From NCBI RefSeq assembly GCF_037076425.1, contig NZ_AP028127.1:278001-342000 (forward strand): a stretch of 64,000 bases of DNA, written 5' to 3'. Under the pieces are notes generated by a model. It saw nothing but the letters and a program-made list of their open reading frames with translations, did no database searches and had not been told where the DNA came from. The position numbers and the translations under genes were made by a program. Shown here piece after piece: positions 56,659-62,308 of this stretch. Origin of the DNA: Turicibacter faecis (lineage in GTDB: Bacteria; Bacillota_I; Bacilli_A; MOL361; Turicibacteraceae). Positions within the stretch are counted from its first letter, which is position 1; each line of letters starts with the position of its first letter.

Positions 56659-56787
56659 GTATAAAATCCCCCTTGCTTTAAAATAATATATTTTCTTATC
56701 TTATCAAAAAATGTCAGATGATGCGACTGTTTTTTTAAAAAAACAATTTTTATAACAATAAAAATTAACTTTTATTGGAAAGGTAAG

Positions 56788-56816
56788 TTGACAAAGTGGG
56801 GTCGAGGGCATATATT
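56788..56816 (+). promoter_or_regulatory. Promoter of the P1B ATPase gene
   Basis: TTGACA (56788-56793), 17 bp, TATATT (56811-56816): a near-consensus sigma-A promoter; +1 near 56823. Confidence 0.85.
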
Positions 56817-56827
56817 AGGAGTATGAA

Positions 56828-56849
56828 CATATGAATAATTATTCATATG
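56828..56849 (+). promoter_or_regulatory. Perfect palindromic operator (ArsR/SmtB-like)
   Basis: The arms CATATGAATA and TATTCATATG flank AT. The dyad starts about 5 bp after the predicted +1 of the metal ATPase gene. ArsR/SmtB/CzrA-type metal sensors bind imperfect repeats with TATGAA and TTCATA half-sites, so a metal-responsive repressor is likely. No such regulator gene lies in the window. Confidence 0.75.
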
Positions 56850-56871
56850 AGTGGATAGGAGGAGGATGGTT

Positions 56872-59019
56872 ATGGAGACTAATCGAGTGTTTAAGCTAGT
56901 ATTAATGGGATTAAATTGTGCGAACTGTGCGAATAAAATTGAAACTCGTATTAATCATTTAGAAGGTGTAGAAGAGGCAACACTTAATTTTTCTACCAAC
57001 CAATTAACGGTTTTAATAAAAGATACAGTAAATAAGGATGAGATCGTTGGTGGTATTAAACAAATTGTTAAACAATTAGAACCAGATGTTGTCGTTAAAG
57101 AAAGCGAAACCGCTATTGGTCCTCATAATATGTGTCATCATGGAGAATGTGGGGGAGATCATGATGAAAAAGTCAAAACGAGAAGTTTCTTTGTAGAGAA
57201 TATAGCTTTATTACTTGGGGTATTTATCTTTATTATTGCGAGTTTGTTTGCTATTGAGGAACCAGTAAAGATTGCCCTTTATGTTGTCAGTTATTTATTA
57301 ATTGGAGGGGAAGTTTTACAAACTGCGCTCCGAAATATTTTTCGGGGTGAAATCTTTGATGAGAATTTTTTAATGATGGTTGCGACAGTGGGAGCGTTTG
57401 CCATTGGAGAATACCCAGAAGCGATTGCAGTGATGCTATTTTATGAAATCGGTGAATTATTTCAAGGATATGCTGTCAATCGTTCGCGTAAATCAATTAG
57501 TAGCTTATTAGATATTCGTGCCGATCATGCTAATTTAGTGACCAAATCAGGAGTTAAAGAGGTTGTACCGGAGGCCGTTTTAATTGGTGAATGGATTGTG
57601 GTGAAACCAGGGGAACGAATTCCGCTTGATGGAGAAGTGATTGAAGGTGAGTGTTACTTAGACACGTCTGCCTTAACAGGGGAATCCGTTCCGAGGTTAG
57701 TGCGCGTAGGAGACGAAGTTTTAGCAGGTTGCATTAATACGAATGCTTTGATTACGGTTCGTGTGACAAAAGTAGCCGGGGAATCAACCGTAGCCCGTAT
57801 TCTTGAATTGGTGGAAAATGCTTCATCTAAAAAGGCGGAGACTGAAAAATTTATTACTAAATTTGCCCGTATTTATACACCGGTTGTTGTCGGATTAGCT
57901 GTTTTACTTGCGGTTGTTCCAACGATGATGGGGGCCGACCTCTCAACGTGGCTTTATCGTGCGCTAAGCTTTTTAGTTGTTTCATGTCCTTGTGCGTTAG
58001 TTGTTTCGATTCCACTCGGTTTCTTCGCTGGACTCGGCGGGGCATCGAAACAAGGGGTTCTAATTAAAGGCGGAAATTATCTAGAGGCATTAAATCATGT
58101 CGAAACGGTTGTTTTTGATAAAACGGGAACATTAACAGCAGGGGTGTTTAAGGTCACTCAAATGAATCCTATGGGCATGGATGAAACACAATTTTTAGAG
58201 TTCGCCGCTTACGCGGAGAGTCAGTCAACACATCCAATCGCAACGTCTATTGTTGAAGCTTATCGTCAGGTGATTGATTCAACACGAATAACAGCGTATG
58301 AAGAGATAGCGGGGCATGGAATTAAGGCAACAGTAGATGGAAAACAAGTTCTCATTGGAAATAAAAAACTCATGACTCAAGCACATCTTGAAAGTGAAGA
58401 GGTTGAAACAATAGGTACCGTTATTCACTTGGCAGTGAATGGAGTTTACGCTGGATATATGGTGATTTCTGATGAAATTAAGGAAAATGCGAAAATGGCG
58501 GTGACTAAATTAAAACAACAAGGGATAAAACGTATCGTGATGTTAACAGGAGATCATGTAGGTGTTGCAAATAAAGTCGCGGAAGAACTTTTAGTGGACG
58601 AGGTTTATGCCGAGTTATTGCCTGATCAAAAGGTGGAACACGTGGAGGCCATTTTAGGGCATAAATCAAAAGATAAACACGTTGTCTTTGTTGGCGATGG
58701 AATGAATGATGCACCGGTTCTTGCGCGTGCTGATATCGGGGTAGCGATGGGAGGTATTGGTTCGGATGCCGCGATTGAAGCCGCAGATGTCGTGTTAATG
58801 GAAGATGATCCGTTGGCGCTTTGCAAAGCGATTGAACAGGCAAAACAAACACGCGCGATTTTATATCAAAATATTATTTTTGCTTTAGGGATTAAAGTGC
58901 TCGTCATGATACTTGTGGCTTGTGGCTTAGCAACGATGTGGGCCGCGGTGTTTGCAGATGTAGGTGTGACTTTATTAGCAGTCATTAATAGTACACGGGC
59001 GTTAAAATTACGCAAATAA
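56872..59019 (+). CDS. P1B-type heavy-metal ATPase (Zn2+/Cd2+/Pb2+ efflux type)
   Basis: This 715-residue protein has an N-terminal HMA domain with C16-A-N-C19, then a His/Cys-rich stretch (HNMCHHGECGGDHDE). The membrane metal site is CPC (372-374), the phosphorylation site DKTGT is at Asp416, STHPIA supplies the HP locus, and GDGMNDAPVLA the hinge. SCPCALVVS and the His-rich linker fit the ZntA/CadA (zinc, cadmium, lead) subgroup better than copper CopA. ATG 56872 is 6 nt after GGAGG. The promoter and palindrome upstream suggest metal-induced expression. A terminator follows. Confidence 0.93.
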   Translation: METNRVFKLVLMGLNCANCANKIETRINHLEGVEEATLNFSTNQLTVLIKDTVNKDEIVGGIKQIVKQLEPDVVVKESETAIGPHNMCHHGECGGDHDEKVKTRSFFVENIALLLGVFIFIIASLFAIEEPVKIALYVVSYLLIGGEVLQTALRNIFRGEIFDENFLMMVATVGAFAIGEYPEAIAVMLFYEIGELFQGYAVNRSRKSISSLLDIRADHANLVTKSGVKEVVPEAVLIGEWIVVKPGERIPLDGEVIEGECYLDTSALTGESVPRLVRVGDEVLAGCINTNALITVRVTKVAGESTVARILELVENASSKKAETEKFITKFARIYTPVVVGLAVLLAVVPTMMGADLSTWLYRALSFLVVSCPCALVVSIPLGFFAGLGGASKQGVLIKGGNYLEALNHVETVVFDKTGTLTAGVFKVTQMNPMGMDETQFLEFAAYAESQSTHPIATSIVEAYRQVIDSTRITAYEEIAGHGIKATVDGKQVLIGNKKLMTQAHLESEEVETIGTVIHLAVNGVYAGYMVISDEIKENAKMAVTKLKQQGIKRIVMLTGDHVGVANKVAEELLVDEVYAELLPDQKVEHVEAILGHKSKDKHVVFVGDGMNDAPVLARADIGVAMGGIGSDAAIEAADVVLMEDDPLALCKAIEQAKQTRAILYQNIIFALGIKVLVMILVACGLATMWAAVFADVGVTLLAVINSTRALKLRK

Positions 59020-59265: not shown

Positions 59266-59964
59266 ATGAAAAAGTCACATATTTTAATTGTTGAAGATGA
59301 GCGCGAGATTGCAGTGGCGATTGAGGCGTATTTATTGAATCAAGGCTATTTGGTGAGCATCGCCGCAAACGGGGTTGAGGCACTTGAAGTGGTTTCCTCA
59401 CAACCCATTGATTTAGCGATTGTCGATGTCATGATGCCGAAGATGGACGGCATTACTTTTACGATGAAATTAAGAGAAACGCATCATTTTCCAGTGATTA
59501 TGTTATCGGCTAAATCGGAGGAAGTTGATCAAATTATGGGACTCAATATGGGGGCGGATGACTATGTAACCAAACCGTTTCGTCCGCTTGAATTACTCGC
59601 CCGTGTCAATTCACAACTAAGAAGATACCAGCGTTTTTCGGCCATTAATCCCGAAAATCAACAAAATGTGTTAACGATTGGGGGACTTGAGTTAAATATG
59701 GAGACGAAAGAGTTCACTGTCGATGGGAGTTTGGTAAAATTAACTCCTATCGAATATAAAATTCTGAATTTGTTAATGAGGCATCCTGGTCGTGTCTTTC
59801 CGGCTGAGGAGATTTATGAACGGATTTGGAATGAAACGGCAGTAAGTACGGATACCATTATGGTTCATATCCGTAATATTCGAGAGAAAATTGAGATTAA
59901 TCCAAAAAAACCAAAATATTTAAAGGTGGTGTGGGGCGTTGGCTACAAAATTGAAAAACAATAA
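59266..59964 (+). CDS. OmpR/PhoB-family response regulator
   Basis: The 232-residue protein has a receiver domain (residues 1-120) with the acidic pair Glu10-Asp11, phospho-acceptor Asp54 in IVDVMMPKMDG and the conserved lysine in DDYVTKPF. A C-terminal winged helix (about 135-230) contains LTPIEYKILNLLMRHPGRVF, TIMVHIRNIREKIE and VWGVGYKIE. It resembles VanR and other Bacillota regulators, but that alone does not indicate vancomycin resistance. Its last 26 bases overlap the sensor kinase gene. Confidence 0.93.
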   Translation: MKKSHILIVEDEREIAVAIEAYLLNQGYLVSIAANGVEALEVVSSQPIDLAIVDVMMPKMDGITFTMKLRETHHFPVIMLSAKSEEVDQIMGLNMGADDYVTKPFRPLELLARVNSQLRRYQRFSAINPENQQNVLTIGGLELNMETKEFTVDGSLVKLTPIEYKILNLLMRHPGRVFPAEEIYERIWNETAVSTDTIMVHIRNIREKIEINPKKPKYLKVVWGVGYKIEKQ

Positions 59965-62308
59965 ATGGTTTTGTTTAATTGTATCCTTCTTTGTGATCTT
60001 AGGACTTTCGTTGGGAATGATGGCAACCTATCCAAAGATTGCAACCTATGTTAAGAAAAATCAAGAAGGATATTACGATCAATATGATATGTATAGTCAA
60101 ATCACGATAAAAAATTATTTAACTTATATTGAAGCTTTAGATGAAAGACACAATGATTTCATTGGTCTAGCTAAAGATCTCTATGATGATAAGGGAAATT
60201 CAAGAAATTTAGGCGCATGGTGTGAAACTCTATTTGAGTATTATACCGAGACAGATGATATTGGGTACGAGGAGTATATCGATGAAGAGTATTCAGAGGG
60301 AGGAAATGAATATTCTGTTCCAACAGTTGCCGTAGATTATCGGCGTATCTTAAAAACAATTAATCCCCAGTTAGCGCGGGAGTTGGCAGACGTTCCGTTT
60401 GAACAACTCACTGAAGAACAATTAGTACAAGTCATCGAGTGTTTATTATCTGAGATGATTTCAGAAGAAATACGATCTCTTCGGGGGGAATATCATCTAT
60501 CTGAATTGGATTCAATCGTCCGGGAGACTAAGTCAGAGTCGGAGGCGGATGAGGCCACTGAAAATCCCTCTTTTTCGACTGAGGAGTTGGAAAAAGACAA
60601 GAACCTAGCTCTCTTATTAAATGAATTAAGTGAAAATGACTTAAAGGAGCTTCAAAAAGAATATCAATATTTTATTCGTTTAGATTATGATGCGGCTGGG
60701 AGATTATCCATTCCTTATTTTTATGGAGAAAGCGGGAAGTCATCGCAACAATTTGCCTACGAGAGTTTAAAGGAAACTTCTAATCCTTATTTTATGTCTT
60801 CTGAGCTAGCCCCCATTAAAAATATGACGTTTATTTATGGAATCCCTAAGGGGAGTACAGCCGGGTTTGATTATGGGAGTGGTTATTATGCAACTTCTAC
60901 GATTAGTATATTTTATGAATCAATAGTTGTCCTTTTGCTTACTGGGGTTACGATACTCATTCCGCTTGCCGGTCTGAATCAATTTAAACTCATAAAGGGA
61001 TGGTTTAAATGGCCACTTGAGATAGTGAGTATTATTTCTACTGGCTTAATTGGCGTTTATCTATTGATGATTGAGCTGATCCATTCTGTGATTTCTAACC
61101 CACCCTTCTTACTTGAGTTATCTGAGAAGTTTTCGGTGAACTTAACATTTATTCAAAATCTAAGCTTATGGTTTATGCTTCTTTTAGTTACATTTATGAC
61201 TCTCCTGTATTTTAAACAGTTGATTGTTCAAGGAGGGAGACGAACAATGCGTCAAAATTGTTGGTGTTATCGCCTAGGACGATTCATTTATCGTCAAGGG
61301 AAACGGTTGACAGAAGTTGATTTAAAAGAAGAAAATACGAAAAAGTTAGCCTTGTTTATTTTTATCCAAGCAATTTTAGTTTCCTTATGTTGTTTTGGTT
61401 GGTTTTTCGGGGTTTTTGGCGTGATTATCTATAGTGTCGGATTGTACATCTTTTTACGTAAACACCTTCTAACTCTTCAACAAAACTATGCCACTCTATC
61501 TCAGGTGACAGAGGCATTAGCAGATGGGAATTTAGAGGTTGAAATGAATCAGGATCTTGGCATTTTCAATGCCTTCAAAGAAGAAATTATGGCCATTCAA
61601 GATGGATTTAAAAAGGCGGTAAACGAAGAGGTTCGGAGTCAGAAGATGAGGAGCGATTTAATTGCGAATGTGTCGCATGACTTGAAAACGCCGTTAACGT
61701 CGATTATTACGTACACAGATTTATTGAAAGATGAGACGTTGTCTAAAGAGAAGCGGGAGCAATACTTACAAACGCTTGATCAAAAGGCGCAACGCCTAAA
61801 AGTATTGATTGAAGATTTATTTGAAATGAGTAAGGCAAGTAGTGGGAATATTACGATGAATCTTCAAGAGGTAGAAGTGACCTCGTTAATGAAACAAACG
61901 TTACTCGAACTTGAGGATAAAATTCAGGATGCGAATTTAATGATTCGGCGCCAGTTTCCAGCCCATAAAGTGATATTAAAATTAGATAGTGAACGAACAT
62001 TCCGCGTGTTTGACAATTTAATTTTAAATATGACGAAGTATGCGATGCCAGGAACTCGGGCGTACATTGAGATTTTAGATCAATCAGAAGTCGTTCAAAT
62101 TGTATTTAAAAATATGTCAGCAGATGAACTTTGTGTAAGTGCACAGGAGTTAACGGAGCGTTTTGTTCGTGGGGATCAATCCCGTCATACGGAAGGTTCA
62201 GGATTAGGACTAGCGATTTCAAAAAGTTTTGTGGAGCTTCAAGGCGGAAGTTTAGATATCCAAATCGATGGAGACTTATTTAAAGTTATAATTACTTTTA
62301 CTAAATAA
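59939..62308 (+). CDS. Large multi-pass sensor histidine kinase
   Basis: The 789-residue protein starts at TTG 59939, nine bases after AAGGTGG, inside the regulator gene. It has an N-terminal membrane segment (about residues 10-32), an acidic extracellular domain of about 290 residues, and five or six more segments between about 322 and 505. The HisKA motif ANVSHDLKTPLTS has phospho-His580. The HATPase domain ends with GSGLGLAISK; the G2 glycines are kept. The many membrane segments and large extracellular domain differ from simple VanS proteins. Signal is unknown; envelope stress or an antimicrobial is a reasonable guess given the MATE and metal pump neighbours. Confidence 0.9.
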   Translation: MATKLKNNKWFCLIVSFFVILGLSLGMMATYPKIATYVKKNQEGYYDQYDMYSQITIKNYLTYIEALDERHNDFIGLAKDLYDDKGNSRNLGAWCETLFEYYTETDDIGYEEYIDEEYSEGGNEYSVPTVAVDYRRILKTINPQLARELADVPFEQLTEEQLVQVIECLLSEMISEEIRSLRGEYHLSELDSIVRETKSESEADEATENPSFSTEELEKDKNLALLLNELSENDLKELQKEYQYFIRLDYDAAGRLSIPYFYGESGKSSQQFAYESLKETSNPYFMSSELAPIKNMTFIYGIPKGSTAGFDYGSGYYATSTISIFYESIVVLLLTGVTILIPLAGLNQFKLIKGWFKWPLEIVSIISTGLIGVYLLMIELIHSVISNPPFLLELSEKFSVNLTFIQNLSLWFMLLLVTFMTLLYFKQLIVQGGRRTMRQNCWCYRLGRFIYRQGKRLTEVDLKEENTKKLALFIFIQAILVSLCCFGWFFGVFGVIIYSVGLYIFLRKHLLTLQQNYATLSQVTEALADGNLEVEMNQDLGIFNAFKEEIMAIQDGFKKAVNEEVRSQKMRSDLIANVSHDLKTPLTSIITYTDLLKDETLSKEKREQYLQTLDQKAQRLKVLIEDLFEMSKASSGNITMNLQEVEVTSLMKQTLLELEDKIQDANLMIRRQFPAHKVILKLDSERTFRVFDNLILNMTKYAMPGTRAYIEILDQSEVVQIVFKNMSADELCVSAQELTERFVRGDQSRHTEGSGLGLAISKSFVELQGGSLDIQIDGDLFKVIITFTK

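Follow-up and report, generated by a model that had tools for sequence, protein, structure and literature searches.

A P1B-type ATPase gene of Turicibacter faecis is preceded by a strong promoter-like sequence and, just beyond it, by a long perfect palindrome, which raises the question of what reads this element and where the reader is encoded. In the window (the whole stretch of DNA analyzed, 64,000 nucleotides, genome positions 278001-342000), the region contains the following features:

56788..56816, plus strand: sigma-A-type promoter (TTGACA 56788-56793, 17-bp spacer, TATATT 56811-56816)
56822..56828, plus strand: candidate third half-site TATGAAC (a TGAAY oriented like the first TGAA of the dyad and 8 bp ahead of it)
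56828..56849, strandless: perfect 22-bp palindrome CATATGAATAATTATTCATATG (operator core ATATGAAYA-NN-TRTTCATAT)
56857..56865, plus strand: ribosome-binding site AGGAGGAGG
56872..59019, plus strand: P1B-type ATPase, 715 aa (TIGR01512, PF00122, PF00702, PF00403)

Judged from its motifs, the ATPase is of the Zn/Cd/Pb type and a putative metal exporter. It scores 514 bits against TIGR01512 (cut-off of 313.5) and carries an HMA domain with CANC, a Cys/His-rich stretch (HNMCHHGECGGDHDE), DKTGT, and HP. P1B-2 pumps, which carry Zn, Cd, or Pb, are recognized by CPC-x4-S-x-P, a Lys in the next helix, and DxG in the last; all three are found here, in CPCALVVSIP, IIFALGIKVL, and DVGVTL. The listed GTG start at 56851 is probably not the true one, because AGGAGG, present twice (56857-56862 and 56860-56865), falls inside the frame that this codon opens, and the ATG at 56872, the probable start, is well spaced from it. 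Downstream of the ATPase gene, on the same strand, lie genes for a response regulator resembling VanR and for a sensor kinase of 789 aa whose N-terminal region is long (59266-62308). The orthologous ATPase of another Turicibacter genome (L009, G003:C1:1471183-1473603) is an 815-aa frame with a second N-terminal HMA-like domain, visible as an extra match to query residues 4-79.

The original prediction described a near-consensus promoter with a perfect 22-bp dyad within 5 bp of +1, and the sequence agrees on each point. The promoter has 11 of 12 consensus bases and is the best of three promoter-like matches between 56600 and 57000. The palindrome mirrors without mismatch and starts after a gap of 11 bp from the -10 box; if +1 is assumed to lie about 7 bp past that box, the dyad begins at about +5/+6 and extends from roughly +5 to +27. 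Its core, TGAATA-AT-TATTCA, fits TGAAYA-NN-TRTTCA with 0 mismatches. The arms mirror perfectly over 10 bases about a 2-bp center, while the outermost two bases (AACATATGAATA-AT-TATTCATATGAG) do not; the 12-2-12 repeats of known operators are likewise termed imperfect in the excerpted text of PMC8790569. Conservation extends beyond these 22 bp, to include TATGAAC (56822-56828). A second perfect palindrome (18 bp, TGTTTTTTTAAAAAAACA; 56728-56745) lies in the same intergenic region, with a divergent MATE-family gene on one side and the ATPase promoter on the other.

We compared the 900 bp upstream of the ATPase at 30 class-level loci (L006-L035; drawn from 60 genomes of that class, a single locus per genome) and the upstream regions of a second set of 80 ATPase loci from genome contigs, in which L096 duplicates L007 and L104/L105 represent one MAG. 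The 14-bp core TGAAYANNTRTTCA with at most one mismatch was found at 22/30 class-level loci (reversed control, 0/30), and a 20-mer (ATATGAAYANNTRTTCATAT, at most three mismatches) at 23/30 (reverse, 0/30). Outside Turicibacter, the core was present upstream of 17/25 class-level ATPases, most of which have arsR alongside, and absent at this threshold from the other 8. The second set gave 46/80 (reversed control, 3/80), and among 19 hand-picked copper-ATPase-like (CopA) paralogues of the same class a single one had the core upstream. A looser count (at most two mismatches) was discarded because the reversed control scored as well (12/30 and 23/80; 8.7 and 17.8 expected from Markov shuffles). A matrix made from 18 sites, all of them outside Turicibacter and thus independent of the genus, placed position 56828 at the top of the window with 29.1 bits (next place, 11.8). 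Within the genus, the promoter (TTGAC[A/T]-17-TATA[T/C]T), its spacing, and the dyad are kept in 5/5 genomes, as is the 12-bp distance from the -10 box to ATATGAATA; the spacer keeps its 17-bp length but not its sequence.

The neighborhood of the pump differs between Turicibacter and its relatives. With our own ArsR HMM (E ≤ 1e-8; built from 29 of 30 loci, L059 being omitted as a frame with a stop), arsR was found within 1.5 kb of the ATPase at 21/25 class loci outside Turicibacter and at 0/5 loci within it; at one of the 21 (L031), the arsR domain is fused to the ATPase. Many of the linked operons have the dyad immediately 5' of arsR. The half-sites had been likened to those of SmtB, CzrA, and CadC, and this likeness is borne out by the same dyad at orthologous and more distant ATPase genes, by the arsR genes alongside many of them, and by a matching ArsR/SmtB-family protein encoded in this genome. 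Together, these comparisons suggest that the palindrome is very probably the binding place of a zinc/cadmium-sensing repressor.

Two readings would do without a DNA-bound repressor. That the palindrome arose by chance in an AT-rich intergenic stretch is hardly credible: shorter palindromes are indeed frequent (4 perfect even palindromes of at least 16 bp in the window, 1.92 expected), but this is the sole one of 22 bp, for which 0.03 are expected per 64 kb (100 first-order Markov sequences), and it is conserved in 5/5 Turicibacter and in other families. It is also very improbable that the palindrome works in RNA, as a 5'-leader hairpin affecting how stable the ATPase message is or how it is translated. 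A stem of 9 bp with a 4-nt loop could form in the RNA; however, folding of the leader is only moderately better than that of its shuffles (z = -1.53; 17/200 as good), and it is bases rather than pairs that are conserved: in TGAA the T, G, and first A, and in TTCA the C and A, are invariant (18/18 sites). Among 66 compared operators (68 before identical rows were merged), a -10-like hexamer lies ahead of the dyad in 34, whereas in 11 the dyad fills the -35/-10 spacer and would be untranscribed, which excludes a hairpin as the general explanation. Either position, in the spacer or after the -10 box, is compatible with a DNA-bound repressor.

Where such a repressor might be encoded was addressed with PF01022. 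As originally predicted, the regulator gene is absent from the window (0 of the 4 matches in the genome), and ArsR-type regulators are encoded elsewhere: a 117-aa CzrA/SmtB/CadC-like protein, an SdpR-like protein of 86 aa, a 97-aa ArsR, and one marginal match that reads as MarR-like. The refuting case of a genome devoid of ArsR-type regulators is thereby excluded. The best candidate is:

872509-872859 of G000:C1, 538 kb from the ATPase: candidate ArsR/SmtB metalloregulator, 117 aa (PF01022, NF033788)

This protein scores 68.7 bits against PF01022 and is above the cut-off of NF033788 (ArsR winged helix), and its nearest PDB entries are SmtB (1.5e-21), CadC (5e-17; 1u2w), and CzrA (6e-17). An ungapped alignment places D98, H100, H111, and H114 on CzrA residues 84, 86, 97, and 100, which we take to be alpha5 metal ligands; a literature search on CzrA His97/Asp84 found no match. 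For the orthologue L037, also from Turicibacter, alignment pairs C4 with CadC residue 7 and CVCD with the CadC CVCD, and CadC Cys7, 58, and 60 presumably have functional roles. By alignment, the putative metal ligands of the 117-aa protein are those of an alpha5 site (D98, H100, H111, and H114) and an alpha3N site (C4, C55, and C57). Its metal box, EMCVCD, is one conservative change away from ELCV(C/G)D, a motif that is in print together with the 12-2-12 rule (PMC5658604, in excerpt). The best operon-linked ArsRs from other families are 53-60% identical to it and the next ArsR of the genome 35%, and in a FastTree phylogeny the Turicibacter regulator clade (support of 0.991) joins the linked ArsRs L043, L045, and L046, with weak support (0.562).

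Orthologues of the regulator occur in 3/4 other Turicibacter (87, 87, and 80% identity), and none of the four regulator loci (L036-L039) has a 20-mer site with up to three mismatches; at L038 and L039, the core matches at two mismatches only, far off. The regulator is therefore most likely unlinked from the pump and outside the control of its operator. Autoregulation was considered and rejected, there being no dyad at the regulator's own promoter. Directly after the gene, its last 24 codons and downstream sequence are repeated in tandem (L036:1780-1968, G000:C1), and the copy at 872905-872976 matches regulator residues 94-117 at 96%.

A different protein could nonetheless bind the operator, either the other ArsR (L004, G000:C1:1189959) or a repressor from a different family, for example of the TetR or Fur type; we regard this as unlikely. 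L004 (97 aa) is above the NF033788 and PF01022 cut-offs and has a Cys-X-Cys in ERCACEL. Moreover, in the draft Turicibacter genome G002 (85% complete) the operator is present, yet no close orthologue of the 117-aa protein was found (best match, 40%), so the operator-regulator pairing holds in 4/5 Turicibacter. Against L004 stand its identity of only 35% to the 117-aa protein and its putative recognition stretch, ISQPTLSHHMKIL, which is unlike the QSAISHQLRVL-like stretch common to the 117-aa regulator and most operon-linked ArsRs. Fur-type boxes have a 7-1-7 layout, unlike this dyad with its 2-bp center and TGAA..TTCA arms.

We consider it highly likely, from these sequence comparisons, that the 22-bp palindrome is the operator of the ArsR/SmtB-family metal sensor encoded at 872509-872859, and that this sensor controls the metal-exporting P1B ATPase. 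When metal is not in excess, a dimer of the protein from G000:C1:872509-872859 would occupy the dyad, covering the region of the transcription start, and block initiation at the ATPase gene; repression by occlusion is proposed because the dyad spans about +5 to +27. By analogy with the protein families, Zn(II), Cd(II), or Pb(II) at the alpha5 and/or alpha3N site would lower the affinity for DNA, the repressor would be released, and the promoter would fire, allowing the ATPase to export the metal. The arsR and ATPase genes, neighbors in most relatives, lie apart in Turicibacter, where the operator is found with the pump.

The original prediction had further proposed that the regulator might control a small regulon, and this expectation was not upheld. 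In the whole 2.43-Mb genome, the palindrome is the only site at one mismatch or fewer, and the only match to its 22-mer with up to three mismatches; no site was found at the regulator promoter or at the three CDF transporter genes (PF01545), which were rejected as co-regulated candidates (0 with a site). The 20-mer with up to three mismatches gave 11 genomic sites, fewer than its reversed control (19). The next best of these, the only other with up to two mismatches, lies over the start codon of a gene that we take to be spoIIIAH-like. Other dyad-like sites were therefore rejected as regulon members, given their count under the reversed control and the position of the best one.

The operator may extend beyond the dyad. 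TGAA occurs at an 8-bp upstream offset in 21/66 operators (5/5 Turicibacter and 16/61 others) and only once in total at 16 other upstream offsets (4-20 bp) of the same operators, with TTCA at the mirror position downstream in 6/66; these rows are not independent, many being from Lachnospiraceae, though both Bacilli and Clostridia are included. The extra half-site is put forward tentatively, because its outer AAC partly belongs to the known 12-base arm. A stronger version, which we find doubtful, is that three half-sites, arranged asymmetrically in an 8-bp register (TGAACA-TA-TGAATA-AT-TATTCA) and oriented by transcription, make up the operator, which may bring in a further repressor dimer or allow the repressor to work via direct repeats. 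Before the linked arsR of G006, a genome from the same family, two such half-sites form a direct repeat (TGAGCATATGAACATA), with no good inverted dyad. Searches for SmtB half-site direct repeats and for verbatim operator strings returned nothing apparently related among the literature matches listed. We suggest that the direct half-site 8 bp upstream be included in models of such operators.

In two genomes from another family of the class (G040 and G051), the ATPase frame runs on into a C-terminal ArsR-like winged-helix domain:

L031:1489-3834 (G040:C13): fusion frame, clear (PF01022, CzrA)
L030:1207-3525 (G051:C1), minus strand: fusion frame, weak (NCBIfam ArsR-type)

The G040 domain scores 30.4 bits against PF01022 (cut-off of 22) and matches CzrA at 1.8e-4; the G051 domain has no Pfam ArsR match, and its NCBIfam ArsR-type models are below cut-off. 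Imperfect dyads (2 and 3 mismatches, respectively) lie 62 and 52 bp 5' of the match start. These frames possibly represent a membrane pump joined to a repressor domain of its own, which, if true, would be unusual; none of the best 8 of 25 literature matches plainly describes such a fusion.

Among known systems, staphylococcal CadC/CadA and the linked arsR-ATPase operons of Bacilli and Clostridia have the same type of ATPase, and the Turicibacter dyad is common to many of these linked operons. In contrast to CadC/CadA, the Turicibacter regulator is unlinked and has no dyad at its own promoter, and it lacks a second N-terminal Cys at the place of CadC Cys11, which we take to be that residue in CadC. 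The czrA gene of Bacillus subtilis is also unlinked from its targets. CzrA is described, in the excerpted text of PMC5189952, as a sensor of Zn excess that derepresses CadA efflux, with cadA and czcD as targets; relative to that account, Turicibacter has one visible operator and none at its three CDF genes. The operators of SmtB, ZiaR, AztR, and AzuR, as excerpted from PMC8790569, are imperfect 12-2-12 inverted repeats near the transcription start, and one listed there has a TGAACA-GA-TGTTCA core; compared with these, the Turicibacter operator has ATAT outer arms and an asymmetric upstream half-site. According to the same excerpt, azuR and its target nmtA are far apart, and no repeat was found in the azuR operon or within 500 bp on either side. 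The Turicibacter regulator is similarly distant from its predicted target and has no repeat at its own gene, but that target is a P1B ATPase rather than a metallothionein (nmtA). Literature searches on Turicibacter returned nothing apparently related for ArsR among the matches listed and no match for cadmium and P-type ATPase.

Since both unlinked regulators and operators of this type close to the transcription start are already in print, the Turicibacter case would be an ordinary switch except for a regulator about half a million bases away. At the operator itself, the possible third half-site is the one less usual feature. Regulator and pump, adjacent in most relatives, are separated here, with the operator retained by the pump. 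A gut commensal genus thereby gains a concrete, testable candidate for a Zn/Cd switch, consisting of one operator, one pump, and one distant regulator.
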